Source: an uncultured Psychroserpens sp.
GTDB lineage: Bacteria; Bacteroidota; Bacteroidia; Flavobacteriales; Flavobacteriaceae
Direction: 5' to 3'
Length of the DNA stretch: 64,000 nt
Assembly: GCF_947492715.1 (NCBI RefSeq)
Contig: NZ_CANLNS010000003.1
Coordinates: 248,001 to 312,000, forward strand
The translations under genes and the position numbers were made by a program. Below, one piece after another: positions 9,501 through 63,588 of this stretch. Position 1 is the first letter of the stretch, and every line of letters begins with the position of its first letter. A model generated the notes under the pieces. The model was not told the DNA's origin, searched no databases, and saw only the letters and a list, made by a program, of their open reading frames with translations.

Positions 9501-12500
9501 TATTCATTAGATGATAATCTTACAATCATTGTAGACGGAACGAATTATCGCATTAGTGATTCAGTAAAACCTATAATTGCAGGATCAGGAACCACTCAAG
9601 ATGGAAATGATGTTTTAGTCACTATTACCGATGTAACCGGTGATATCAATATTAATACAGGAGAAGGAGACGACTTTCTAAATATAGATTTTGAAGGAGG
9701 TAATATCATGAATGCAATTAACTACGATGGAGAGGTAGGAGTAGATGGAATCTCATTATCAGGAACAAATATCCATGATAATATTGCTCACACCATTACA
9801 GGTAATAAAATAGGCTTTATTGATATTTCAAATAATGGTACTATTAATTATACAGGATTAGAGCACACTATTAGAGATTTTCTTGATGCTAATGATCGCG
9901 TCTTTACCTTTAAAGTTCAAGCCTCTCGTATTATAATACAAGAAGCAGGTGCTGCAAACAATCAAATATTCTACTTAAACGGAACAAAGATAGAGTATAA
10001 AAATCCTCTTAATTCATTAACTATTGATGGTGATTTTGAATTTCAAAATGGCAATTTTGCTACTACTTTTGTCGATATTGAAGCTATGGGTTCTGGGTTT
10101 GATGCAGATTTGATTATTCATAGAGAACATGACAATGTTCGTTTTAATACCGTAAACACAACTAACCTTGGTAGCGGAAACCTAAATGTAACTTCTGGGA
10201 GTCTTGAGTTGTTTTTTCACAATATCACAACCACAGGATCAGTTACTACTACTAGTAAACGTGTAACTAATATTAGAAATGCCACGATTCAGGCTGAAGG
10301 AGATATTTCTATTACCTCTGGAACACTTGTGTTACCAAATAATATTGTCACGTCAGGTTTGACCAGCGCGCACTTAGAGACCACAGGATCTGGAAATATC
10401 ATCATTAACGGAACAGCATATGCGGCTTTTAATATAAACAACACTACATTAGATGGTTTCTATATGATTCAATCTAGTAGTATTTCTACAGATGCAGGTG
10501 ACATTACAATTATAGGAAATGGGGTTGACAACGGAAATGCTAAATTCAGAGGATTGCGTTTACAAGAATCCTCAAATATACAAAGTAATACAGGAGATAT
10601 AACTATTACTGGTACAGGTAGAAACAACAATAATGATTCAAATATTGGTGTTTCAATGCTTGCTGGTACAAACATTCAAACGGCTGGTGAAGGAGCGATC
10701 AATATCACTGGAACAGGATGGATTGGTCTAGAATTAGACGGAATAGTGAGTACAACAGGCACAGGAAATGTTTGGTTACATGGTACGAGTGGAGCAATAA
10801 ATGCTTCAGCAATCAACTTGCCTTCCTCAAACGCACAATTACAATCTGGAGGTTTCTTGTACTTAAATTCTAATGTAGGCCCAGTTAATACACCTGAAGG
10901 TATCACCTCACAGATTCAATTTAATGGACATACAAGCCTTAACGGAGTTTTAGCTCCAGGGCAATCTCCAGGCCAGTTAATTGTGACAGGAAATCTTGCT
11001 ATTGGAACTAGTAATAACACTTTGGAAATGGAGGTGAATGATTTTACTACCGCTGGGATTGATTATGACCAAGTGGTGGTTAATGGTATTGTGAATTTAA
11101 ATGGCGGTACACTGAATTTAATAGATAATTCAGGAAGCTTCAGCAACTTTGAAACTCTTGTCTTGATTGATAATGATGCAACCGATCAAACCATCGGAAT
11201 CTTTAATGGACTGCCTAATGGTGCTCCAATAGCAGGTAATGGAAAGACGTGGTATATCTATTACAATCAAGGTGATGGTAATGATGTAGTGTTAAGCTCA
11301 GAGCTTCTTCCTAATGTGTTAGTAGATGGTTCAGGGAATCTTGTTTTTCAAGATCCTTATCTGGCAAACGATGATCTTACTATTATAGTTGATGGTTTAA
11401 ATTATCGTATTAGTGACTCTTCAAAACTTGTAATTGCAGGTGCGGGAGCCACTCAGGACGGGAACGACGTTTTAGTATCTGTAGCATCAGTAACGGGTAC
11501 TATCAATATCCTTACAGGAGATGGTAACGATAACCTAAATATTAACTTAAGCGGCGGGGGTTTTCAAAATGAATTTTATTTTGATGGGGGCACTCAAAAT
11601 AATGGTATGTCATTATCTGGATCGGGCAATTATGCAAATGTTGTACATACGTTTACAGATACTTACAGAGGAACTATTCAGATACCTGGTAATAGTGAAA
11701 TAAGTTATAATGACTTGAATTTACCTATTACAGATAATTTAGACGTTAATAATAGGACCTTTAATATGGGGCAAGATGATTATATGACTTTATCTGCAGG
11801 AGGCTCTTTAGATAACCAAATCAATGTTTTTTCATCAACAATAGTAGATTTTGGCAATCCTAATAATTCACTAAGTATTAATAATACAGATTCAGGAAAT
11901 AAAACTGTAGTGATGCAAGGACTAGCAGTCGGATTTGATGCAGATTTATCCATTAATGTTCAAGAAGGAAATGATGTTCGCTTTGATACTAATCCTACTA
12001 ATATTGGTAATGGTAATCTAAATTTAGAATCTGGAAGGCTAGTAATAGATAGTGATGGAAGTATTATTACTACAGGTTTAATTGTTACTTCAACAAAAAG
12101 TACAACAACTATCTCTGGAACAATTCAGTCAAACGGAGGAAGTATTACTATAACTGCAGGTACTGAAGTTGTTTCTGGGAGTAATTTCGGAGGTATATAT
12201 ATGTACAACGGTCACGTTGAGACTACAGGGTCGGGAGATATTATACTTGATGGAACGATATATTTAAACATTCCTGCAATTGTTACTATAGATGGATTTT
12301 GGATGACAGAAGATAGCAGCGTTATAACGGATACGGGAAATATTATTATAAGAGGAAACGGCGTAGATAATGGGAATGCTAATTTTAGAGGAGTACGTAT
12401 TGAAGGTACATCAAGCATTCAAAGTAATGCAGGAGATATCAATATTTTTGGTATAGGAAGAAATCAATCTGACCTTGCTAATGTTGGTGCTTGGACAACA

Positions 12501-50056: not shown

Positions 50057-51196
50057 TTAAAAGGCAAAGCGAATCCCAACACCATAAATATTTTGACTTC
50101 TATCTTCGCCTGAGCTATTTTTACTAAAATCCTGTTTAGTACTGATAAAAATATGGCTTGATTTTTTGAAATTATACCCTATCTCTGTGATCCCAAATTT
50201 AGTATCGAAATCACCTAAATTTTGTCCTGAGTCTGGTTTTAATGAACTAAATCCAGCTGCTACATGCCATCTCATATTAGTAGAAAACTTATAACGTGAA
50301 TAAAACTCTATGCCTTTACTGTCGTAGAACATATCTCCTGTTCTATGATGGTTCTTAAAGATACCATAAGACAAGGCTACTCTAAAACGATTTTTTTCAA
50401 AAGAAGCCGCAGTAATAAAGGCTTCATCATCTACTTTTGCTTGGTTGGGTTCAGGGTCTTCTACACCGTCATTTACTTTGTTATAAGCTATACCTATAGC
50501 AAACCCCTTTATTTTGTAATTGGCTCCAAATCCATAGGTGTCAATACTTTCACTATTTTCAGAAATGTTTCGAGTTTGTGCTTGCGCAGCAAGACTCAAC
50601 CCCTCTTTTTTATAGTTTAGTTGTAATACTTGATTTGCTCTACCTGTTCCAGAAATGCCACCATCAGAGATGTTCCATACACCTAATCCAGTTCCACCAA
50701 AAGCTAGAAAATTATCCAATTCACTTGCAGCTAGGCTATAATATATAGAATTGTTTTTTCCAAAAATAAGAGAGAACTCTTTATAAGAAACCCCTGCATA
50801 ACCAATTCTTGTAAAAACGGCATCTCCCACTTGAGCTATACCTTCATCTGCATCAACAGCAAATTGGACAGTGTCATCTCTAGAGGTTAAATTCAATCCA
50901 AATTCGACACGCCCAATAATATTAAAATTATCATCTTCATTTTGGGAGAGTCGATGATTAAATTTTAAACCTATTCGTGGTGCATTATTTGAAACTCCTA
51001 TCTCACCTTCATCCGCAAAACCAGCACCTAGTCTTATACTTCCGTAAGGTGTTACTCGAGAGGTTATTTCTTCTATCCAATTTGTATTAGTTTCAGTTTC
51101 TTTTTTATTATTTTCTTGCCCATATGTATGACAAGGAATGGAACATAACACCAACAATAATGTCATTTTCGTGAATATGTTAAAATGAGTTTTCAT
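50057..51196 (-). CDS. Gram-negative-porin-type outer membrane protein
   Basis: 379 residues, signal peptide ending HTYGQ. The mature protein has the layout of 16-stranded general porins: VTPYGSIRLGAGFADEGEIG at the first strand, RIGYAGVSYKEFSLIFGKNN, and a final GVGIRFAF strand. It lies 23 bp after the aspartase gene and probably shares the dcu-aspA message, so it may let C4-dicarboxylates or aspartate through the outer membrane; this is inference. Confidence 0.82.
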   Translation of the reverse strand: MKTHFNIFTKMTLLLVLCSIPCHTYGQENNKKETETNTNWIEEITSRVTPYGSIRLGAGFADEGEIGVSNNAPRIGLKFNHRLSQNEDDNFNIIGRVEFGLNLTSRDDTVQFAVDADEGIAQVGDAVFTRIGYAGVSYKEFSLIFGKNNSIYYSLAASELDNFLAFGGTGLGVWNISDGGISGTGRANQVLQLNYKKEGLSLAAQAQTRNISENSESIDTYGFGANYKIKGFAIGIAYNKVNDGVEDPEPNQAKVDDEAFITAASFEKNRFRVALSYGIFKNHHRTGDMFYDSKGIEFYSRYKFSTNMRWHVAAGFSSLKPDSGQNLGDFDTKFGITEIGYNFKKSSHIFISTKQDFSKNSSGEDRSQNIYGVGIRFAF

Positions 51197-51219: not shown

Positions 51220-52638
51220 TTATTTATGTAATGCTGCCGTGTATTTAGGATTCATTAAATTATCTACACTTAAGATTTCATCTAACTTTTCTTCAGAAAG
51301 TAATTCTTTCTCAAGCACTAATTCACGAATTGTTTTACCAGTTTCTACAGCTTCTTTGCCTAAAATATCACCCATATGATGACCTATATATGGATTCAAA
51401 AATGTAATTATACCTACTGAATTAAACACCATTTGTTTGGTATGCTCTTCATTTGCAGTTATTCCATCTACACATTTTTCAGCAAGTGTAATGCAAGCAT
51501 TTGATAGTAATTCTACAGACTCAAACATGCATTGTGCAATTACTGGTTCCATAACATTCAATTGTAATTGTCCAGCTTCTGCAGCAAAAGAAATTGTGAC
51601 ATCATTACCAATAATTTTAAAACAAACTTGATTAACAACTTCAGGTATTACCGGATTTACTTTGGCAGGCATAATTGAAGAACCTGCTTGCATTTCTGGT
51701 AGATTGATTTCATTGAACCCACAACGTGGTCCTGAAGATAATAATCTTAAATCGTTACAAATCTTAGATAGCTTAACACTGGTACGTTTTAATGCTCCAG
51801 AAATCATAACATAAGCACCACAATCTGAAGTGGCTTCAATTAAATTTTCTGCAGGAACAAAACTTGCCTTAGTGTATTGTTGTAAATATCCTATAGATAA
51901 TTGTGTAAAGCCATCTGGTGCATTTACACCTGTACCAATAGCAGTTGCGCCTAAATTAACTTCTAAAATAAGATCACGACAGTGTTTTAGATTCTTTGTT
52001 TCTTCTTTTAAATTTGCAGACCAAGCCCCAAATTCGTCACCTAAAGACATTGGTACAGCATCTTGTAATTGTGTTCTTCCCATTTTAAGAACTTTCTTGA
52101 ATTCTGCGGCTTTTTTATCTAAACTCGATGTTAAAAGGTTAATACGTTCTAACAACTGATTCATATAATAATAAACAGCAACTCTAAAGCCTGTTGGATA
52201 TGCATCATTTGTAGATTGAGACTTATTTACATGGTCGTTAGGATGTAAAATGTCATAACTTCCTTTTTCATGACCATTTAGTTCAAGACCTACATTTGCA
52301 ATAACTTCATTAGCATTCATATTTACTGAAGTTCCAGCACCTCCTTGAAATACATCTGAAGGGAAAAATTGTGCATATTTTCTTAAGTTATCAAGTATGT
52401 GATCACAAGCTTGAATAATCATATCTGCCTTGTCTGATGGAATAGTTCCAATTTCTTTATTAGCAGCTGCGCATGCTTTTTTGGTTAGAACTAGGCCTTT
52501 AACAAAAATTGGAAAATCACCAATTTTAGAGCCAGAAATTTTAAAGTTGTTAATTGCCCTTTGCGTATGAACACCATAATATAATTCGTCATAAATTTCT
52601 AAGTCTCCTAAAAGGTCTGTTTCTTTTCTTGTTTTCAT
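51220..52638 (-). CDS. aspA: Aspartate ammonia-lyase (aspartase)
   Basis: 472 residues, full length. It converts L-aspartate to fumarate and ammonia in the cytoplasm. The superfamily signature [15 protein letters not shown] is present at about residue 318, along with [29 protein letters not shown] and [15 protein letters not shown], which build the active site. The aspartase assignment over fumarase C rests on the overall sequence and on the Dcu gene upstream. The product fumarate would feed the fumarate reductase/succinate dehydrogenase complex encoded at 54526-57856. Confidence 0.93.
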
Positions 52639-52664: not shown

Positions 52665-53966
52665 TTATAAAATTAAACCTCCTAATATAAATCCGAAGAT
52701 GACACTAGATACTATTGTGACGACGCCAGGTATTATGAATGAGTGGTTAAATACATACTTACCTATTTTTGTGGTTCCAGTATCATCCATTTCAACTGCG
52801 GCTAATAGTGTAGGATAAGTTGGTAATACGAATAATGCACTTACTGCTGCAAAAGAAGCAATAGCAGCTATAGGGCTAACCCCTAAAGCTAAAGCTGCAG
52901 GCATTAACGCGGTTGTTGTTGCGGCTTGCGAGTATAATAACATACTAGCAAAGAATAAAACAACAGCCAACATCCAAGAATATTCGTTTAAAACACCACC
53001 AGCTGCGCTCTTAATTTCTTCTATATGATTGCTAACAAAAGTATCACCTAACCAAGCCACACCAAGAACACAAATAGCAGCACTCATACCTGATTTAAAA
53101 GTAGACATACTTGTAATGTCATTCATTTTTATTTTGCAAACTAAAGCGATTACTGTTGCAGCTAATAGCATTACAGCCATAATAGCTTCGTTTCTACCAA
53201 TCATAGGGTTCTCTATAAGACCAACTTTTTTAGAAATCATACTTGCATATGTAACAATTAATATAATTGCTACTAAAAAAATGCCGACAGACCGTTTTGC
53301 TTCTTTTGAGTCTTTATAGTTTTCTTGACTTTTCGCTTTTACTAATCCAGCAGCAACACGTCTTTGATACTCTGGGTCTTCGGCTAATGGTTTTCCTAAT
53401 TTGTTAGCAACTATTGCACCTACTAAACATGCCAAGATTGTAGATGGAATTGCTACAGCGAGTAGTTGTAAGTATGAAACGCCCAAAGGTTCTAAAAAAC
53501 TAGCAAATATGACAACTGCCGCTGAAATGGGTGAAGCTGTGATCGCAATTTGAGATGCCACAACAGAAATACTTAAAGGTTTTGATGGTCTCACACCACC
53601 TTCTTTTGCAACCTCTGTAATTACAGGAAGTGCTGCGTAAGCAGTATGCCCCGTTCCCGCTAATAAAGTCATCCAGTACGTAACAGTAGGCGCAATAAAC
53701 GTAACGCGCTTAGGGTTTTTGCGCAATATTTTTTCAGATAAATGAACTAAATAATCCAGTCCACCAGCTTTTTGCATCGCTGCTATCGCAGAGATGACTG
53801 CCATAATAATTAATATAACATCTACAGGTACGGAGCCTGCTTTTAATCCAAAGATAAGTGTGAGTACAACAACACCAGCACCACCAGCATACCCAATACC
53901 AATGCCTCCCATTTTAGATCCCAGGAAGATAAAAAAGAGAACGACTAATAATTCTATCCAAATCAT
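52665..53966 (-). CDS. Anaerobic C4-dicarboxylate transporter of the Dcu family
   Basis: 433 residues with 10-12 membrane helices. Typical family blocks include [56 protein letters not shown] and [18 protein letters not shown]. DcuA/DcuB carriers exchange fumarate, aspartate or malate for succinate across the inner membrane. DcuA versus DcuB cannot be told from sequence alone. The aspartase gene follows by 26 bp, which suggests aspartate uptake. Confidence 0.92.
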
Positions 53967-53982
53967 AATTATCTGTTTTTAA

Positions 53983-54402
53983 TTAGTTATCATTTATTTT
54001 TTTTGTGATCGCTTTTAGTATGGCATTCCAACCAGCTTTGTGAAGCTTTAACTGATCACTATCAAGAATCTCTTTAACATCTTCATTTAATAACTTTACT
54101 TGTTTTTGGATTTCCGATTTTATCTGTTTTTTTGATAATTTAATATTCGGATTATCCAAACGCTTCATTTTGTAAGCATGATACTTTACTACATTATGAT
54201 AAACGACTCTTGTGTCACCCTCAAGTTTCATTCTGTCCATAAGGTCTTCATACCACAAAGCCTGTATTTCTTCATTGTCTGATAAAAAAACATCTACTCT
54301 GTATTCTAGACGTTCTTTTTGTTCTTCAGTTAATTCTTGTGCTATAACAGTTTGAAAACAAAAACAACTGATTACGATGATAAAAATTTTCTTTAAATCC
54401 AT
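53983..54402 (-). CDS. Small exported helical protein, unknown function
   Basis: 139 residues, signal peptide ending TVIAQ. The mature part is highly charged and helical (LTEEQKERLEYRVDVFLSDN, KKQIKSEIQKQVKLLNEDVK). No known family. It is the first gene after the Crp/Fnr-like promoter at 54440-54485, 16 bp before the Dcu gene, so it should be expressed with aspartate metabolism. Confidence 0.7.
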   Translation of the reverse strand: MDLKKIFIIVISCFCFQTVIAQELTEEQKERLEYRVDVFLSDNEEIQALWYEDLMDRMKLEGDTRVVYHNVVKYHAYKMKRLDNPNIKLSKKQIKSEIQKQVKLLNEDVKEILDSDQLKLHKAGWNAILKAITKKINDN

Positions 54403-54439: not shown

Positions 54440-54485
54440 TGCAAAGTTCAAAATAGACTTTACTATTAATGATGATAAACGTCAT
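54440..54485 (-). promoter_or_regulatory. Promoter with Crp/Fnr-like operator for the dcu-aspA operon
   Basis: On the plus strand TGCAAAGTTC (54440-54449), 22 bp, then the palindrome ATGATAAACGTCAT (54472-54485). Read on the minus strand this is the operator followed by GAACTTTGCA, a -7-like region. The start of transcription would be near 54436, 34 nt before ATG 54402, and the operator centre about 42 bp upstream, the class II activator place. The layout is the same as at 58075-58120. Confidence 0.55.
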
Positions 54486-54525
54486 GTTTTCAAAACTTTA
54501 ACATTATTTTGCAGTCAGATATTCA

Positions 54526-55269
54526 TTACCCAAAAATCCTAGACTTTGTAACTCTAGCATTCATTTCGGCAATATTAATTATTGAAATACCTTCAGGACA
54601 TTCTACTTCACATGCACCAGTAAAGGTACAACTTCCGAAGCCTTCAATTTCCATTTGAAATGTCATTTCTGCCACACGTTTATGTTCTTCTGCTTTACCT
54701 TGAGGCAATGTATTTAAATGATTTATTTTTGCTGAAGTAAATAACGCAGCAGATGAATTTTTACAAGTTGCTACACAAGCGCCACAACCAATACAGGCTG
54801 CTGCATCCATTGCTCTACCTGATATTTCTTTTGGTATTGGAATTGCATTTGCTTCTGGTGCTGTTCCTGTTTTTGCACTTATAAAAGCGCCCTGTTCAAT
54901 AATTCTATCTAATGAAGAACGGTCTACTACTAAATCTTTAATTACTGGAAATGACGCTGCTCTCCATGGTTCAACAACAATAGTATCTCCATCATTAAAA
55001 CTACGCATGTGTAATTGACAGGTAGTTATATTATCATGAGGGCCATGAGCACGACCATTAATAAATACTCCGCATTGTCCACAAATACCTTCTCGGCAAT
55101 CATATTCAAAAGCTATTACTTTCTCATCTTTAAGAACAAGCAATTCATTTAAATGATCTAGAGCTTCTAAAAAAGACATCTCTTCAGTTAAACCATCTAC
55201 TTCATAATCTCTTATGGCTCCTTTATCTTTAGGACCTTCCTGCCTCCAAATTTTAAATGTTACTTTCAT
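54526..55269 (-). CDS. sdhB: Succinate dehydrogenase/fumarate reductase iron-sulfur subunit
   Basis: 247 residues. It passes electrons between the flavin and the haem subunit. The 2Fe-2S cluster is bound by CREGICGQCGVFINGRAHG, the 4Fe-4S cluster by ACIGCGACVATCKN and the 3Fe-4S cluster by CTFTGACEVECPEGI. It ends the CAB operon, 6 bp after the flavoprotein gene. The sequence type is that of the Bacteroidota diheme enzymes that can work in either direction. Confidence 0.95.
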   Translation of the reverse strand: MKVTFKIWRQEGPKDKGAIRDYEVDGLTEEMSFLEALDHLNELLVLKDEKVIAFEYDCREGICGQCGVFINGRAHGPHDNITTCQLHMRSFNDGDTIVVEPWRAASFPVIKDLVVDRSSLDRIIEQGAFISAKTGTAPEANAIPIPKEISGRAMDAAACIGCGACVATCKNSSAALFTSAKINHLNTLPQGKAEEHKRVAEMTFQMEIEGFGSCTFTGACEVECPEGISIINIAEMNARVTKSRIFG

Positions 55270-55275
55270 AGTATT

Positions 55276-57186
55276 TTACTTATAGCTTCTCACAGAAGGT
55301 TTAACAAATTCAAATTCTAATTCTTCCTTGTGTAAATTGAAATTACCATTATCATATTCCCAAGCTGAAACATAACTATAGTCTTTATCTACACGTACAG
55401 CTTCACCATCTTCAGTTTGAAACTCTTCTCTAAAGTGTGCACCACATGATTCTTCACGTTCTAAAGCGTCTGTACACATTAAAATTCCTAACTCAATGAA
55501 ATCGGCCAAGCGTAATGCTTTTTCAAGTTCAGTATTCATTTCCTTATCATGACCTGTAACTTTCACATCACTCCAAAATTGATCTCTAATTGTTTTGATT
55601 TGAGTGATTGCTTTTTCTAATCCAGATTTATTTCGGCTCATGGCACATTCTTGCCACATGACTTTGCCTAGCTCTCTATGAAAATGATCGACTGTCTTTG
55701 TTCCATTTATAGTTAGAATTTGTTCTATATGCGCTTTGGTTTCTTTTTCTGATTTTTCAAATTCTGGATGATCTGTAGTTGGGTGATCTGTTTTTATTTC
55801 GGAAGCTAAGTAATTGTTAATTGTATTTGGTAATATAAAATAACCGTCAACACTTGCTTGTAATAATGAGTTAGCACCTAATCTATTTGCGCCATGATCA
55901 GAAAAATTACATTCTCCAATGGCATATAATCCAGGAATGGTTGTCATTAATTCGTAATCTACCCATAGTCCACCCATTGAGAAATGCGCTGCAGGTGAGA
56001 TTTGCATTGGCTCTTTATAAGCGTTTATTCCTGTTATTTTTTCATACATGGTAAATAGGTTACCATAACGATCTTTTATAGTTTCTAACCCGAATTTTTC
56101 AATAGCATGTTTAAAATCTAGATACACTGCGTTTTTTAGTTTTCCCACGCCAAAACCAGCATCTATACGCTCTTTTGCTGCGCGTGATGCAATATCACGA
56201 GGTGCAAGATTTCCATAACTTGGATAACGTCGCTCTAAGTAATAATCGCGTTGATCTTCAGGTATTTCGTTTGCTTTTCGTAAGTCATCCTTTTGTTTTG
56301 GAACCCAAATACGCCCATCGTTACGAAGTGATTCAGACATCAAAGTAAGTTTGGATTGGGCTTCGCTAGATTGCGGCAATGCTGTGGGATGAATTTGAGT
56401 AAAACTTGGCGCTCCAAATAATGCGCCTTTTTTATGTGCTTTCCATAATGCACTTCCATTGCAACCAATAGCTAAAGTTGATAGTCTAAATACACGGGAA
56501 TAGCCTCCTGTTGCTAGCACAACAGCATCAGCAGCAAAACGTTTTAACTCTCCAGTGACTAAATCCCTCACAATAATACCTTTTGCTTTTCCGTCAATAA
56601 CAACTAAGTCTAACATTTCACTTCGCGGAAACATTTCCACTTTTTTAGCACGAACCATTTTATATAATTGAGAATAAGCCGCTAAAAGCAATTGTTGTCC
56701 TGTTTGCCCACGAGCATAAAACGTACGTTGGACTTGTACACCACCAAAACTCCGATTGACCAAGGTGCCTCCATATTCTCTTGCAAAAGGCACACCTTGC
56801 TGTACAAAATGGTCAATGAGTGGAGCAGATAATTCTGCTAATCGATAAGTGTTGGCTTCACGTGACCTAAAGTCACCACCTTTTAATGTGTCGTAAAACA
56901 TACGATACACACTATCGCCATCATGTTGATAGTTCTTAGCTGCATTTATTCCGCCTTGAGCTGCTACAGAATGGGCGCGTCTGGCAGAATCTTGATAACA
57001 GAAGCACTTCACATCATAACCTAATTCAGCTAGAGTAGACGCTGCTCCAGCACCAGATAACCCAGAACCAACAACAATGATATTGAGTTTTTTCTTGTTC
57101 GCAGGATTTATTAATCGGGACTTAACTTGGTAGTTACGCCATTTATCTTCGAGTTTTCCTTCTGGAATTTTTGAATCTAATGTCAT
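55276..57186 (-). CDS. sdhA: Succinate dehydrogenase/fumarate reductase flavoprotein subunit
   Basis: 636 residues. FAD-binding [17 protein letters not shown] near residue 42, the covalent-FAD His in [18 protein letters not shown], and catalytic region blocks [19 protein letters not shown] and [18 protein letters not shown]. It oxidises succinate or reduces fumarate at the inner face of the cytoplasmic membrane. Closest in form to the B. fragilis and epsilonproteobacterial type flavoproteins. Second gene of the CAB operon, 7 bp after sdhC. Confidence 0.95.
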
Positions 57187-57193
57187 CTTCTAG

Positions 57194-57856
57194 TTATTTG
57201 AAATAAACGATAAAAGGAATAATCCCAAAACCGACACCCATTATAATTGCATATATCAAGGATATTTTTGCTAAAATTTTTAAGCCCTTCTTATGATAAA
57301 ACCCTAAGGTTTTGAAGGCGCTTTTTAAGCCGTGATGTAAATGTAATGCCAGAGGAATAGAAATTAAGGTATAGAAAATCACAAAATAGATGTTTTGAAA
57401 TAAGCTATATGTCACTTCATAAACATCTTTATTACCCATGTGATCTAACCGAACGTCTTCACCCATACCGAGTTTAATTCGTGCCCAGAAATTTGCTAAA
57501 TGCACAATAATAAAGAGTAATATTAGTGTACCGATCAATCCCATGTTTTGAGATGTCCAGGTACTATTCTCGTTTGAGTGATTGACAACATATTTTTGGG
57601 GCTTAGCTTTGCGATTTCTAAGCGTTATTAATAAAGCATAAAATGCGTGAAGGATAATAGATACATATAAAACGTAAGCTATGATTTTAATTAAAGGACT
57701 TTCTCTTAAAGTTGTTGAATAAGAATTATATAGATCTCTGGCAATATCCTCTGGTAATAGTAAAATACAATTTGCCGAGAGATGCACAATCAAAAACACA
57801 CACAGAAAAAGACCTGTCGCAGCAATAATTGTTTTTCTAAAAAAGAGTGGATTCAT
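57194..57856 (-). CDS. sdhC: Succinate dehydrogenase/fumarate reductase diheme cytochrome b subunit
   Basis: 220 residues with five membrane helices. Haem-ligand His candidates sit in FLIVHLSANCILL, SIILHAFYALL, FIIVHLANFWAR and ALHLHHGLKSAFK, as in diheme type B cytochromes. It anchors the complex and reacts with menaquinone. Such diheme subunits allow fumarate reduction or proton-potential-driven succinate oxidation. A 34-residue membrane peptide frame lies just upstream, within the presumed leader. Confidence 0.93.
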   Translation of the reverse strand: MNPLFFRKTIIAATGLFLCVFLIVHLSANCILLLPEDIARDLYNSYSTTLRESPLIKIIAYVLYVSIILHAFYALLITLRNRKAKPQKYVVNHSNENSTWTSQNMGLIGTLILLFIIVHLANFWARIKLGMGEDVRLDHMGNKDVYEVTYSLFQNIYFVIFYTLISIPLALHLHHGLKSAFKTLGFYHKKGLKILAKISLIYAIIMGVGFGIIPFIVYFK

Positions 57857-57929
57857 CGAAGTTAATTTTGATTGATTGGATACTTCTTCTAAATCTTAGA
57901 ATATTACCTACTAATTTAGTGAAAAAACA

Positions 57930-58034
57930 TTACTTCTTTAAGTCTTTATTTACTTTTATTAATCCATATAAACCAATACTAACTAATGGTGTTATAAGGA
58001 TTAATAATTTCAAACAAATTTGTAAAATTTCCAT
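57930..58034 (-). CDS. Candidate 34-residue membrane microprotein before sdhC
   Basis: ATG at 58034 opens a 34-codon frame: a short polar start (MEILQIC), one hydrophobic stretch (LKLLILITPLVSIGLYGLI) and a basic tail KVNKDLKK. This is the layout of single-helix accessory peptides such as CydX. It begins about 36 nt after the predicted transcription start and ends 73 bp before sdhC. No strong ribosome site is seen, which is normal in this phylum. An accessory role with the Sdh complex is inference. Confidence 0.5.
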   Translation of the reverse strand: MEILQICLKLLILITPLVSIGLYGLIKVNKDLKK

Positions 58035-58074
58035 TATTTTATATTTAAATAAAACGGCTTCTTATAATATCTTA

Positions 58075-58120
58075 TGCAAAGTTCGTATGATAAAACCTTG
58101 GAGGATATGATAAAAATCAT
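58075..58120 (-). promoter_or_regulatory. Promoter with Crp/Fnr-like operator for the sdhCAB operon
   Basis: On the plus strand TGCAAAGTTC (58075-58084), 22 bp, then the perfect palindrome ATGAT-AAAA-ATCAT (58107-58120). On the minus strand GAACTTTGCA lies at the -7 place, giving a start of transcription near 58071 with the operator centred about 42 bp upstream. The same order and spacing occur at 54440-54485. The rest of the 57857-58267 gap holds the microprotein frame and A+T-rich leader; nothing else is seen in 58121-58267. Confidence 0.6.
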
Positions 58121-58267: not shown

Positions 58268-61200
58268 TCAAGATTTTTTGAACGCTTTCTTTCTAAAATA
58301 CGCTAAAACCGAAACAATAATCACTATCGCAATTAGCACATAAATAAATTTAGGTACAGGAACTGGGTCACCAGCTGCATAACTATGTAAACCAGATAGG
58401 TAATAGTTTACACCAAAAGATGTCATAATAATAGAACCAAACGCAAATACGCTTGCAACATTTAATACATAACGGCTTTTTAATGCTGGAATAAAACGCA
58501 AATGCAAAACTATGGCATACACAATTATACTAATAAGTGCCCAAGTTTCTTTTGGATCCCAAGCCCAATAACGCCCCCAACTTTCATTAGCCCAAATGCC
58601 TCCTAAAAATGTGCCTACTGCTAAAACAAATAAGCCAATCGTCATTGAAATTTCGTTGATATACGTCAATTCTTTAATGCGAATATTAATAACTTCTTTT
58701 GTTTTTTCTGTTCTAAAAATAAAAAGTAATAAGGCCATAAATCCTAAAACAGCAGATAAGGCTAAAGGCGCATAACTACTCACAATTGTTGCTACATGCA
58801 CTTTTAACCAAAATGATTTTAAGACAGGCATTAAGTTGGTAATCTCTGGACTTAGCCAATCCAAATAGCTTACAAATAAAAGCGCTCCAGAAAACAAAGT
58901 AGACAACGGTAACGCAAAATCAGATTTTCTGAACGTTAAGAACCCACAGAGCAGTAAAACCCAAGCCACAAAAACAAGCATTTCATAACCATTACTCCAA
59001 GGGGCATGTTGTGCAACATACCAACGCAAAATGATATTTCCTGTGAATATGATAAAACTAATAAGAGTTAATATTATGAAGGTGTTCCAAACAAATTCGA
59101 TTCCCTTTTTCTGACTAAAAATTTTGATGATTGATAGTACTAAAAGAATGGCTCCTAAAGTAAAGAACACTTGAAAAAGCCAGAAATTTAGATTGAGTTG
59201 ATTGTACCATAATTCGGCTTCAATACGTTTTCTATTCGGAATAATGTCTTTTCCTAAAACATCTTGGAACGTTTTAATATAGCTTAGTTTTTCGCTAGCA
59301 TCTATCCAGTTTTTGTCGTTAACATCTTTAAAATAATTCGGAATGATTTGTTGAGCGAATTGTCCATCTTCCTCTGGAAAATCCTTAAAGTGATGTGTTT
59401 GACTATGCCATGTATTATTATCATCATTACTATTTGGAAACACTTTTAAGTAGTTGCCAGAAAAGACATTAAACAAAATATTAAAACGCTCGTCAACTTT
59501 AATAACCTCTTTATCAAATTCACTTCGTTCGGCAGGTTTCTTTTTATTCGCTTGTTCAACGACCTTACCTAATATGTATTTTCCTTTGTCATCTAATAAC
59601 CCAATAAAGGATACTAATCCATCTTCACTTATATCTAAACCTTTAAAGAGCTCTCCTCCTTTTTGAGCATCAACTTTTATAATCGGAATAAATTGCCAAA
59701 CATTTGCAGAAGACTGCATCGCCAAAAATGCTTGATTAGCATCTAATCGAACACTTTTTCCTTCTTTAGTGAATTTGAAGTAGGGCTTGCGAGAGAGCTT
59801 TCTTAAAAATTCGGAAGCTAGCGTATTCAAAGGTTTTATACGTCCATCTAAATCTTGTACCATTAAGCGGCCAAATAATTCAGCATGTTGCTTATCAACA
59901 GTTTGTTGATTTATGATTTCAATAGTAACTTCTGGAATTTCAGGTTTTTCAGTTTGAGAAAGCGCAACATTTGAAATACTTAAAATGAATAGAAGTAGAG
60001 AGGCGCTTTTCAATTTTTTTAACTTCTTATTGATTAAAGTGAACCTTGATGTTTTTCCGAAGAGCGTAAAAAACATGCCTATCATCATTAAAAAGTACCC
60101 TAAATACGTCACATTTGTACCTATGGCGTCATGGTTCACAGCTAATACAGTTCCTAATTCATCAGTGTCATAACTCGCTTGAAAAAAACGATAACCTTTA
60201 TAGTCCAAAACGTTATTCATGAATATACGATGCGGTGTTTCAGTATTATTATCGATCACTTTGACCTCACTCGCATAAGCAGACGGACTTGTAGAACCAG
60301 GGTAACGTTCCAATTGAAAATCGTCTAAATGAATAGAAAAGGGCGTGATTACAGGTTCAGCGCCATAAGACAATGAGATTTTTATGTTATCTATATCGAC
60401 ATCATGCGTTGTTGGTAGAAAACCTTGTCTGTATAATAAGGTCGACTCTTTCTCCGTATCATTTACGTTTACATTTACAACTAAGGCATCGTCTTTTAAC
60501 TCATCGTTATCTTTTGGCTTTTCAGCCTCGCTAACCAAACCAATCGTTGCTTTTGGATGGTAGGATAATGGTACAAAAGACGCATCACCATCGCGATACA
60601 ATGTTCGTAATGACATGGTGTGCAAACTGTCTTTTTTGATAGTGCTTGCGGTTTCGGTTGCCATGACAAAAGAGCTTAAGTTTCTAGGTGAAAGCATACT
60701 AAATACACCGTCTTTTTCTATGATATTTATAACATCGGGTGCATCAACTTCAAAACCAACTTTATGCTGATGTTGCCCAATAGCTTCAATTTCACCTTTT
60801 TCTAGAAAGACCGTTTCTCTTCCATTTCCTGCCGAAACCACCATTTGAAGCATGGGCTTTCCGTTAGGTTGGTTTTCTTTTATTTGCGGAATAGCATCCG
60901 CTATAAAATCTTTGTACGACACAGCAACAGATTTATTATTAAACTCTGTTTGAATACTAAAATCATTATCACTTAAAGTCGAAAAACTCAGTCGCTTTTT
61001 TACTGATTTTGTTGTGTTTCCATCAGTAAGGTGCACATGGAGGAAATTGGCATCAGAAATAATAACATTTGAGGAAGCCCCTTCTCGAATACGCATAATA
61101 CCACCGTAAGAATTGTAACGTGTAATACTGGCTCCAATAAGAATGATAACGAAGGCAAGGTGAAACGTTAATAAGGGCCATTTCTCTAAGCGCCAAAGTT

Positions 61201-61405
61201 TGTACTTATATATGTTCATTATGAAACAAACACCTAAACCAGCCATAACTAATTCAAACCACCAAGCATCATAAATTAATTTCCAAGCGGTTGCAGTACC
61301 AAAATCATTTTCTACGAATGTTGCTACAGCCATCGCTATTGCAAACGTAAAAAGTAATACAATAGCCAGAATTGGTGAGGCAAGCAGTCGAAAGAGTTTA
61401 TTCAT
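58268..61405 (-). CDS. ccsBA: Cytochrome c biogenesis protein, fused CcsBA (ResB-ResC)
   Basis: 1045 residues. The N-terminal ResB/CcsB part has membrane helices (LLASPILAIVLLFTFAIAMA, FELVMAGLGVCFIMNIYKY) and a large periplasmic domain. The C-terminal CcsA part has the haem-handling WWD motif (SWGRYWAWDPKETWALI) and flanking His residues. The fusion carries haem across the membrane and attaches it to CxxCH motifs. It lies after nrfA in the same direction, past a terminator-like hairpin, and would mature the multihaem NrfA and NrfH. Confidence 0.92.
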   Translation of the reverse strand: MNKLFRLLASPILAIVLLFTFAIAMAVATFVENDFGTATAWKLIYDAWWFELVMAGLGVCFIMNIYKYKLWRLEKWPLLTFHLAFVIILIGASITRYNSYGGIMRIREGASSNVIISDANFLHVHLTDGNTTKSVKKRLSFSTLSDNDFSIQTEFNNKSVAVSYKDFIADAIPQIKENQPNGKPMLQMVVSAGNGRETVFLEKGEIEAIGQHQHKVGFEVDAPDVINIIEKDGVFSMLSPRNLSSFVMATETASTIKKDSLHTMSLRTLYRDGDASFVPLSYHPKATIGLVSEAEKPKDNDELKDDALVVNVNVNDTEKESTLLYRQGFLPTTHDVDIDNIKISLSYGAEPVITPFSIHLDDFQLERYPGSTSPSAYASEVKVIDNNTETPHRIFMNNVLDYKGYRFFQASYDTDELGTVLAVNHDAIGTNVTYLGYFLMMIGMFFTLFGKTSRFTLINKKLKKLKSASLLLFILSISNVALSQTEKPEIPEVTIEIINQQTVDKQHAELFGRLMVQDLDGRIKPLNTLASEFLRKLSRKPYFKFTKEGKSVRLDANQAFLAMQSSANVWQFIPIIKVDAQKGGELFKGLDISEDGLVSFIGLLDDKGKYILGKVVEQANKKKPAERSEFDKEVIKVDERFNILFNVFSGNYLKVFPNSNDDNNTWHSQTHHFKDFPEEDGQFAQQIIPNYFKDVNDKNWIDASEKLSYIKTFQDVLGKDIIPNRKRIEAELWYNQLNLNFWLFQVFFTLGAILLVLSIIKIFSQKKGIEFVWNTFIILTLISFIIFTGNIILRWYVAQHAPWSNGYEMLVFVAWVLLLCGFLTFRKSDFALPLSTLFSGALLFVSYLDWLSPEITNLMPVLKSFWLKVHVATIVSSYAPLALSAVLGFMALLLFIFRTEKTKEVINIRIKELTYINEISMTIGLFVLAVGTFLGGIWANESWGRYWAWDPKETWALISIIVYAIVLHLRFIPALKSRYVLNVASVFAFGSIIMTSFGVNYYLSGLHSYAAGDPVPVPKFIYVLIAIVIIVSVLAYFRKKAFKKS

Positions 61406-61477: not shown

Positions 61478-62977
61478 TTAATTAGTAGCTGTTACTACAT
61501 TTTTAGTTTGATAAGTTGCTTCACGCGCTTTTGCTTCTTCAAGCCATTTTGGCAATAGGTTCTTTTTAAATGTGTCTTTTTCAGCTCTTAATTTTTCGAT
61601 ATCTAACCCAATAAATTCTTGTGCCTTTTCTTTGGTGCTAATATCTGGCATCTCAATTGGTTTATTATGACCAAGACTTGCTAACATTCGTGCGAGTTTT
61701 ACACGAGCTTCTTGTGCGATGACTAATCCGCTTCCAATAACGCGAGCAGTTTCAACTGGTGAATGAAAAGAGGCTCCATGTGCTGCAGCTGAGTAATCCC
61801 AACGCCATTGCGCATGACGAATATCAGTCAAGATCGGTTTCATTTGTGTTTCTGTCGCACCTAATTCCCAACATTTAGCGGCCTCTAAATGAGCACTCAC
61901 CAATAAGTTTTCTAATTTAATACGATTTTCAGATGCTTTGCGCTGTCTTTCATAGACGTTTGCAATAAGATTTTTTGATTCTTCTCTATGACATACTTGA
62001 CAAGCATTAGATGTGTTATTTAAAGGGGATTGAATATGATGATCTGTAAATTTCTGACCGCCTTCACTTTTATAAGGCATATGACAATCTGCACAAGATA
62101 CTCCTCTGTCTGCGTGGACTCCTGTTACGAAGGTTTCATAACCTGGATGTTGAGCTTTGAGCATTGGTGTTTTACTTATTTTGTGTGTCCAATCAGAAAA
62201 CTCTATGTTGTCATAATAGTTCTCCATTGCTTCAACAGTGAAGCCATCTTTCCAAGGGAATTTTAGATACGGTACACCTTCTTTACCTGGGAGCTTTTTA
62301 TCAAAGTAGTATTCGACATGACACTGTGCGCAAACTAGAGAACGCATTTCATTGTGTGTCGCTTGATTGATGTCTTTTCCCATAGCATCAAAGGCTTCAA
62401 CTAAGGCAGGACGCGTAATGCGTAATTTCATACTGTTAGGATCGTGACAATCTGCACAACCAATAGGGTTTACAACTTGTTCTCCTTTATCTGCCCATTT
62501 TCCACTATAAAATTCTGCAATTCCAATCTCATTCATCAAACGTGGCACATCAGGACTTTTACACGTCCAACATGTAGCAGGCATTGGACCATCTCCTTTG
62601 CCTTCTGGACCTCCAGTTCTTAACGTGTTATGAATATCATCAATAGCATAGGCATGACCACGACCTTGGTTATAATCTTTAGAAAACCCATAACCTGCAA
62701 ACAAAATGACTAAGCGGGGATCTTCTTCAAGGACATCCCGCATACGAGAACCGCCTTGATAGGAAGCAAATGATGTGTCTAATGTTTGTAATGAGGATTG
62801 ATATTCTAGTGGGAAATTTTCGCCCCAAACCTCATTTCTAGGCTCATTTTCAGCAATGTTTACTTTAGGAACATATTGATACTTGGCCTCTGATTTTCTA
62901 TTGACAATACTTGAAGCCAAAAGCCCAAGTAAGAAAACGACAATAATGGTTACAATGAATAATACTTTATTTTTCAT
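61478..62977 (-). CDS. nrfA: Ammonia-forming cytochrome c nitrite reductase, catalytic subunit
   Basis: 499 residues. It reduces nitrite to ammonia with six electrons in the periplasm. The active-site haem is bound by CWTCK near residue 137, with the diagnostic Lys. Four normal motifs follow: CADCH, CAQCH, CADCH and CQVCH. The N-terminus is an uncleaved or cleaved signal anchor (VLFIVTIIVVFLLGLLASS). The gene follows nrfH by 14 bp. The protein length and five haem sites agree with complete NrfA. Confidence 0.96.
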   Translation of the reverse strand: MKNKVLFIVTIIVVFLLGLLASSIVNRKSEAKYQYVPKVNIAENEPRNEVWGENFPLEYQSSLQTLDTSFASYQGGSRMRDVLEEDPRLVILFAGYGFSKDYNQGRGHAYAIDDIHNTLRTGGPEGKGDGPMPATCWTCKSPDVPRLMNEIGIAEFYSGKWADKGEQVVNPIGCADCHDPNSMKLRITRPALVEAFDAMGKDINQATHNEMRSLVCAQCHVEYYFDKKLPGKEGVPYLKFPWKDGFTVEAMENYYDNIEFSDWTHKISKTPMLKAQHPGYETFVTGVHADRGVSCADCHMPYKSEGGQKFTDHHIQSPLNNTSNACQVCHREESKNLIANVYERQRKASENRIKLENLLVSAHLEAAKCWELGATETQMKPILTDIRHAQWRWDYSAAAHGASFHSPVETARVIGSGLVIAQEARVKLARMLASLGHNKPIEMPDISTKEKAQEFIGLDIEKLRAEKDTFKKNLLPKWLEEAKAREATYQTKNVVTATN

Positions 62978-62991
62978 GTTATAGTGTTTTA

Positions 62992-63588
62992 TTATTCTTT
63001 TTTAAGTTGTTCTTCCATCCAAGACGGAATGACGATTTCTTCTTGATCTGTTGGTAAAGGCGCTAGGTTAAACTTTATTGTAGTTAGACCATGTACTTTA
63101 CCATGCGGAATCATTTTATGACAACTCCAGCATTGGCGACCCGTTCTATTTTCATTATGACCTTCTAACCAACCATCATATTTGGCTTGTGTGACTTGTT
63201 GAACATGGCAACGAATGCAATTGTTTTGAACAACTTCTTGAGACGCTTCTTTCATTTCAATAACATCAGGCTCTGCTCTTGCTGTAAAAACTGAGGCGTG
63301 ATATAAGCCGTCTTTGGCTTTGAAATAATACTTATTGATGACGTTATCATGAGGCACATGGCAATCATTGCAATTTGCCCATTCGCGGTGTGAACTATGC
63401 ATCCAGCTATTATAAACGGATGTCATAACATGGCAATTAACACAAGCCTGAGGGTCATCTGATAAATAGGAGGCTATTTTAGATTCTCTTGCCATAAATA
63501 AACCCAAACCAATAACGACAGCAATAAAGAACATAGCTGTTTTTCTCCATTTAGAGTTTTTTGGCAAGATGTTGAACTTAAATATCAA
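62992..63588 (-). CDS. nrfH: Cytochrome c nitrite reductase small subunit, quinol dehydrogenase
   Basis: 198 residues. A single N-terminal membrane helix (TAMFFIAVVIGLGLFMA) is followed by four CxxCH haem sites: CVNCH, CNDCH, CIRCH and CWSCH. It passes electrons from menaquinol to NrfA. The only start keeping the basic pre-helix segment LPKNSKWRK is TTG at 63588 (or nearby TTG); the next ATG would cut into the helix. It leads the nrfHA pair. Confidence 0.93.
   Translation of the reverse strand: MIFKFNILPKNSKWRKTAMFFIAVVIGLGLFMARESKIASYLSDDPQACVNCHVMTSVYNSWMHSSHREWANCNDCHVPHDNVINKYYFKAKDGLYHASVFTARAEPDVIEMKEASQEVVQNNCIRCHVQQVTQAKYDGWLEGHNENRTGRQCWSCHKMIPHGKVHGLTTIKFNLAPLPTDQEEIVIPSWMEEQLKKE

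Follow-up and report, generated by a model that had tools for sequence, protein, structure and literature searches.

In Escherichia coli, targets in anaerobic respiration are controlled by FNR, a regulator of the Crp/Fnr fold that has three N-terminal cysteine ligands and one in the beta-roll, and that binds a 14-bp palindrome with an N4 centre at -41.5 of class II promoters. Class II activation requires an operator locked at this position, whereas the sites of repressors vary in theirs. Here we analysed a stretch of 64,000 nucleotides, called the window below, from an uncultured Psychroserpens sp. of the Flavobacteriaceae (bases 248001-312000 of contig C3, NZ_CANLNS010000003.1; the genome measures 4.2 Mb in 41 contigs). 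Two promoters in the window, one ahead of dcu-aspA and a porin gene and the other ahead of frdCAB, share a single design in which a Crp/Fnr-type palindrome stands at a fixed distance from a -7 box. With a probability of about 0.72, we consider both sites to be class II operators for an FNR-like Crp/Fnr activator acting under low oxygen, most likely FnrC5, which is encoded elsewhere in the genome. Fold, form and position of the operator and type of target resemble those of E. coli FNR. The differences are in the operator arms (ATGAY here, TTGAT in E. coli), the recognition helix (E-x-x-I-R against E-x-x-S-R), the -7 box (TAnnTTTG against TATAAT) and the third cysteine ligand, which would lie outside the N-terminal group.

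Other Crp/Fnr regulators also invite comparison. HcpR2 of Bacteroides and others likewise reads an N4-centred palindrome; it differs in its motif, GTAACnnnnGTTAC, and in its predicted regulon, which a section of PMC1274295 gives as hcp alone in most Bacteroides. CrpPg of Porphyromonas gingivalis (2GAU), introduced in a passage of PMC12040651 as a cAMP-independent Crp homolog, is the solved structure that FnrC5 matches best (6.6e-26), ahead of FNR structures; the alignment begins at FnrC5 residue 35, and the N-terminal cysteine pair of FnrC5 has no counterpart there. The predicted MalR-like Crp/Fnr homologs of Flavobacteriales belong to the same order and include a dicarboxylate transporter among their predicted targets. 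They differ in that their matrix comes from Bacteroides MalR, that carbon sensing was proposed and that the transporter was lower in anoxia, and the available part of PMC8510549 does not describe class II spacing. We found no description of a regulon such as the present one in the open-licence PubMed Central literature, among the matches listed. The type of mechanism is ordinary, but the regulon, with its variant sensor, is apparently undescribed.

Re-reading the window confirmed the sequence, spacing and orientation of both composites exactly as the original prediction had given them. TGCAAAGTTC stands at 54440-54449 and again at 58075-58084, followed by 22 bases and then by a palindrome of the type ATGATAAAnnTCAT, namely ATGATAAACGTCAT at 54472-54485 and ATGATAAAAATCAT at 58107-58120. 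The two composites (54440-54485 and 58075-58120) have the same orientation and direct both promoters to the minus strand; on the coding strand the order in both is palindrome, 22 bases, GAACTTTGCA. Both palindromes match ATGAY-N4-RTCAT exactly, in keeping with the Crp/Fnr arm and spacer form first assigned to them. Both -7 boxes read GAACTTTG, with G for T as the single deviation from TAnnTTTG, the motif that a passage of PMC9723704 places at -12 to -5 of flavobacterial promoters. Because the published box spans these positions, the palindromes centre on -41.5, which bears out the class II placement that had been proposed. The same centre was computed from the predicted starts at all nine exact sites of the genome, defined as ATGAY-N4-RTCAT followed by TTTG at 26 bp. 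Leaders at these sites measure 12-38 nt, assuming that hemN begins at codon 31 of its open reading frame (ORF) and that a 34-codon ORF is the first frd gene; the frd leader would be 38 nt to this ORF and 216 nt to frdC itself. At the predicted starts these class II operators would act through contacts with RNA polymerase.

We rejected the bare palindrome as evidence. Its two matches in the window are near chance (shuffle mean 0.69; two or more in 16 of 100 shuffles), and the whole genome has only 59, compared with 21 matches to the reversed pattern. Palindrome, fixed spacing and -7 box taken together exceed chance. In the whole genome TTTG follows the palindrome at gaps of 18-26 in 15 cases, nine at 26 and six at 18-25 together (Poisson about 1e-7), and of these six, two come from the dcu palindrome itself, read at a different distance or in the opposite direction. 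A family sample of 199 Flavobacteriaceae genomes, evenly drawn, held 999 matches to the 26-bp composite in 165 genomes; the six spacings 20-25 summed to 499, an average of 83, and reversing the 26-base pattern left 72. The genome and family scan that the original prediction had called for thus found a composite far from randomly spread. The family sites also carry bases that the pattern did not request: T at 0.70 at -12 and A at 0.83 at -11 (30 sites from 30 genomes), as in the Bacteroidetes housekeeping box TAnnTTTG at -12 to -5, and T at 0.70 at both -33 and -32, where it may belong to the flank of the operator or be what is left of a -33 element. Scored with a weight matrix made from 60 sites found in other genomes, the window sites reached 24.4 and 22.1 bits. 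No other place in the window exceeded 11.5 bits, and the highest score in 60 simulated windows was 20.2 (mean 11.9).

The fixed-spacing composite is a design general to Flavobacteriaceae. In a phylum sample of 198 genomes this family was the main concentration (125 matches in 19 genomes), with 3 and 5 matches in two genomes from a second family of the order and 46 matches in 28 genomes of other orders of the class, about 1.6 per genome (summed by hand). Matches outside the class were few. The exception is family f21, in which all three genomes sampled held 4 to 5 exact 26-base sites.

The genes behind the nine exact sites (Table 1) include those for cbb3 oxidase, haem synthesis and nitrate reduction, from which we infer a low-oxygen respiration set. 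Under oxygen limitation, Flavobacterium psychrophilum strongly induces its cbb3 oxidase and also haem synthesis, according to a passage of PMC9723704. Sites similar to those of hemN, cco, ccoI, peroxiredoxin, nap and the C10 operon recur in at least one other member of the genus (by eye, matched on site sequence alone). The interpretation first proposed, joint control of aspartate uptake, aspartase and fumarate reduction, is supported in part, these further low-oxygen targets included; the two-promoter arrangement itself was seen in this genome only. One-mismatch sites number 38 in the genome, a figure that includes the nine exact sites, while the reversed pattern gives 17, and we are therefore unsure of most single ones. 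The likeliest are the Usp site at C4:322878 and that of a pyridine-nucleotide-oxidoreductase gene starting at C1:595936.

A Crp/Fnr protein encoded outside the window, as the original prediction had supposed, was found in FnrC5, a 225-aa protein encoded beside cbb3 oxidase genes (G000:C5:167658-168335, G000 being the present genome). It belongs to the Crp/Fnr superfamily (PF00027 71.4, PF13545 58.3 and PF00325 23.1 bits, all above cut-off), and its top curated model is FNR (NF008365). Cysteines 4, 7, 29, 53, 59 and 106 are kept in all 30 rows of close orthologs (72-100% identity, FnrC5 included). Among distant orthologs (45-60% identity), read from 20 readable rows with FnrC5 included and one row dropped, C4, C7, C53 and C106 are kept in 20/20, C29 in 4/20 and C59 in 12/20. 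C29 and C59 were rejected as ligands, their conservation being confined to close relatives. Three of the kept residues, C4, C7 and C106, have FNR cysteines as their counterparts in the alignment. The strands that bear C53 and C106 would be adjacent in the cyclic-nucleotide-binding jelly roll, which makes C53 a plausible replacement for the remaining ligand; FnrC5 may thus offer an FNR with a shifted ligand.

The recognition helix of FnrC5 reads E-x-x-I-R, as in 30/30 close and 21/21 distant orthologs; the solved FNR has V-E-T-I-S-R, and FnrC5 departs from the E-x-x-S-R of FNR proper. Helix residues 180 and 181 of Crp/Fnr proteins correlate with site bases 3 and 6 (Rodionov and others, in a section of PMC1274295). 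By our own alignment FnrC5 has E181 and T180, with no R180, in agreement with that correlation. The site beside the fnrC5 gene is itself conserved. ccoI adjoins fnrC5 in 27 of 30 close loci, and 26 of the 27 have a spacing-26 site facing ccoI; the three loci that lack ccoI have no site. Nineteen of 20 distant loci have ccoI, and 12 have a site at spacing 25-27, eight of them at 26. With the first base left free, the 26 orthologous divergent promoters read ATGA in 22 cases, CTGA in four and TTGA in none, and so do not carry the TTGAT-N4-ATCAA site of FNR proper. Site number also follows the protein: the median is 6 sites in the 119 of 199 family genomes with an FnrC5 ortholog (best match of at least 43% identity) and 1 in the 80 others (Mann-Whitney 2e-13, relatedness not corrected for). 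In the genus, 21 of 23 members have an ortholog, with a mean of 7.3 sites; the two others have 0 and 2.

Several observations weigh against FnrC5 as an FNR-like reader of the two window sites. It scores 99 bits against a cut-off of 228 in the FNR model, below what is set for FNR proper, and the third N-terminal cysteine ligand of FNR is N13 in FnrC5. Eight of the 20 distant fnrC5 loci have no divergent site, and G205 has an ortholog and no exact site. Genomes that lack FnrC5 can hold many sites (G108 17, G056 11, G090 10, G069 10 and G113 8), and other Crp/Fnr proteins therefore probably also read the motif. The reduction of nitrite to ammonia usually belongs to the targets of FNR, yet nrfHA had no site in the matrix scan of the window, nor was one found in the 12 kb beyond it. 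Nor can conservation vouch for the two window sites, because at orthologous promoters, where the original prediction required it, the motif was found in 0/22 other dcu loci (18 distinct genomes; spacing 25-27, up to 600 bp upstream) and in 1/37 frd loci. Finally, the genome encodes 13 proteins with a cyclic-nucleotide-binding domain, and among the 12 that were read (L023 was left out) E-x-x-I-R occurs in only two, each divergent beside an exact site. One is FnrC5, in whose favour this small number speaks; the other, a protein encoded on contig C10 (G000:C10, start taken at 10645), weighs against it as a second candidate.

This last point leads to the alternative that survives best, which we still regard as unlikely: that the window sites are class II operators read mainly by a different paralogue of the Crp/Fnr family, for example the C10 protein, with nitric oxide or redox as a possible signal. 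The C10 site is nearly unchanged in G202 and G217, and G108 and G113, which hold their many sites without FnrC5, each carry a different FNR-like E-x-x-I-R paralogue; that of G108 has an N-terminal cysteine group and lies behind an MFS-like gene (below the Pfam cut-off). The C10 protein has no cysteine pair. Its residue 180 is V, as in the solved FNR, where FnrC5 has T, and this residue is tied to the base that differs from the FNR site (section of PMC1274295). Most named targets are moreover of the oxygen type, and site number tracks FnrC5, again without correction for relatedness. Other Flavobacteriaceae have a second FNR-like paralogue, 249-252 aa long, in which the N-terminal cysteines are grouped more tightly and the helix reads E-E-Q-V-I-R (L176 694-1449, L178 610-1356, L179 595-1341); in L176 its gene is preceded by an MFS-like gene.

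We think it very improbable that the protein acts at the window sites as a repressor, whether in air or under other conditions, a role that some Crp/Fnr proteins take at times: operator position alone leaves the sign of the effect undecided, but a locked -41.5 suits class II activation where repressor sites would vary, and the cbb3 oxidase of a relative is induced by oxygen limitation (passage of PMC9723704). A chance likeness of two AT-rich promoters, for which the near-chance number of bare palindromes and the lack of sites at orthologous genes outside the genus could be cited, is scarcely credible given matrix scores above every simulated window, exact spacing family-wide and an frd site that the closest relative retains, complete with its N22 spacing and the canonical TAACTTTG box.

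Under the preferred reading, with FnrC5 as activator, a cofactor held by cysteines (probably an iron-sulfur cluster, with C4, C7, C53 and C106 as ligands) would, when oxygen is scarce, enable the dimer to bind ATGAY-N4-RTCAT at -41.5, immediately upstream of the -33 region. Bound FnrC5 would then recruit RNA polymerase, whose sigma factor would read TAnnTTTG, and the regulon would induce a high-affinity oxidase together with nitrate reduction and the anaerobic route of haem synthesis. It would in addition have captured, in the present strain, a patchily occurring fumarate-reduction cluster of Dcu, aspartase, porin and FrdCAB, in which fumarate derived from aspartate would feed FrdCAB. More tentatively, and with some doubt, we suggest that Flavobacteriaceae use a distinct oxygen sensor, FNR-like, with its cluster on the N-terminal C-x2-C, C53 (in the strand G-V-F-C) and C106, which reads ATGAY-N4-RTCAT in company with the TAnnTTTG sigma and with nearly no slack in spacing, and that clusters of the Dcu-Frd type can be wired in by one 14-bp site, here twice independently. 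Flavobacteriaceae are a major marine group whose low-oxygen sensing seems undescribed in the open-licence literature, among the matches listed. A motif at a fixed distance from the -7 box allows low-oxygen genes to be predicted in their genomes, and the promoters could be used to study activators that work with the unusual Bacteroidetes sigma.

The two window sites appear to be evolutionarily young, that of dcu having been seen in this genome alone. Of the 199 family genomes, 7 have a Dcu match, which reaches 87% identity or more in five (this genome included), and in the genus 2 of 23 members have one. Distances upstream of dcu were measured from the start of the p139 or dcu match, not from verified start codons, and the 22 loci include the duplicate contigs L060/L169, L047/L170, L035/L171 and L039/L172. 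A search of the 37 loci over as much as 450 bp upstream of frdC (91 bp in L027) gave five palindromes, of which those in L028, L036 and L047 look by eye like coding sequence. Only locus L026 has the full site with a correctly spaced box: ATGACAAAAGTCAT, 22 bases and the canonical TAACTTTG, the sole exact site of that locus. L026, the same locus as that of G217, comes from the uncultured Psychroserpens isolate 2-804-G, the closest relative by FrdC (96% identity). Loci L080, L081 and L086 were also scanned and hold no site; L180 was left out.

Gene order in L026 is as in the present genome. There p139 begins about 17 bases after frdB, and frdCAB-p139-dcu-aspA looks like one operon; here the second site lies within a 123-base gap between frdB and p139. 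Other genera with both Dcu and FrdCAB have dcu-aspA ahead of frdCAB, mostly as p139-dcu-aspA-...-frdCAB-porin. Because L026 has the frdC site only, it would seem that the frd promoter of the species pair joined the regulon and that the dcu entry was either gained here or lost in L026. We rejected the duplication of one promoter into the other, since the flanks outside the 44-bp core are unlike by eye, and for the same reason prefer an independent origin of the two sites.

Curated models do not separate succinate dehydrogenase from fumarate reductase for FrdCAB. It probably works as a fumarate reductase because of its partners: aspartate is taken in, aspartase makes fumarate and FrdCAB would reduce it. 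The 34-codon ORF ahead of frdC, perhaps a small one-helix membrane protein and the first gene of the frd operon, has no convincing match in the 36 frd loci other than L026. Coordinates are collected in Table 1.

Table 1. Features of the two window promoters and their operons (window positions), and genes behind the other exact sites of the genome (contig:position of the site)
Feature	Position	Strand	Basis or remark
Palindromic operator ATGACGTTTATCAT, dcu promoter	54472..54485	-	exact pattern match; matrix score 24.4 bits
-7 box GAACTTTG, dcu promoter	54442..54449	-	predicted start 54437, operator centre -41.5
Palindromic operator ATGATTTTTATCAT, frd promoter	58107..58120	-	exact pattern match; matrix score 22.1 bits
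-7 box GAACTTTG, frd promoter	58077..58084	-	predicted start 58072, operator centre -41.5
p139, 139 aa, exported-looking, first gene after dcu promoter	53983..54402	-	no Pfam or NCBIfam match
Dcu-type anaerobic C4-dicarboxylate transporter	52665..53966	-	TIGR00770 626.5 bits, PF03605
aspA, aspartate ammonia-lyase	51220..52638	-	TIGR00839 731.8 bits, above cut-off
Porin	50057..51196	-	PF13609
34-codon ORF between frd promoter and frdC	57930..58034	-	88% identical in L026; leader 38 nt
sdhC/frdC, cytochrome b558 subunit	57194..57856	-	TIGR02046
sdhA/frdA, flavoprotein	55276..57186	-	NF005749
sdhB/frdB, iron-sulfur subunit	54526..55269	-	NF005746
NapD-like gene, napA, c-type cytochrome genes	C1:381495		NapD-like: 26.7 bits, Pfam cut-off 28
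Alginate-export-type porin gene	C1:389480		
hemN, Usp gene behind	C5:148449		
ccoS and ccoNO, cbb3 oxidase	C5:165085		
ccoI-like heavy-metal P-type ATPase	C5:167577		
Peroxiredoxin	C7:87455		
Small operon, 93-aa and 136-aa proteins	C10:10595		no family match

Some further features of these loci may be noted. The 93-aa and 136-aa genes (G000:C10:10288-10569 and 9865-10275, minus strand) are divergent from the C10 Crp/Fnr gene; neither protein has a Pfam match, and although the 136-aa protein looks globin-like, neither Pfam nor NCBIfam supported that label. In the window, the nrfHA nitrite reductase genes (61478-63588, minus strand) adjoin a ccsBA-type gene at 58268-61405. p139 accompanies dcu-aspA in most loci yet diverges fast, with 54.5% identity to L026 where Dcu has 96%. 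In the Aquimarina dcu-frd clusters (L032-L034 and L036-L038) the palindrome is absent, and a block common to them, TTACTTCACTTAAATGATTAGAAATTTAATCTTAATATC, lies upstream of p139. Variants of this block are found in L031, L040 and L061, and it is perhaps the site of another regulator.

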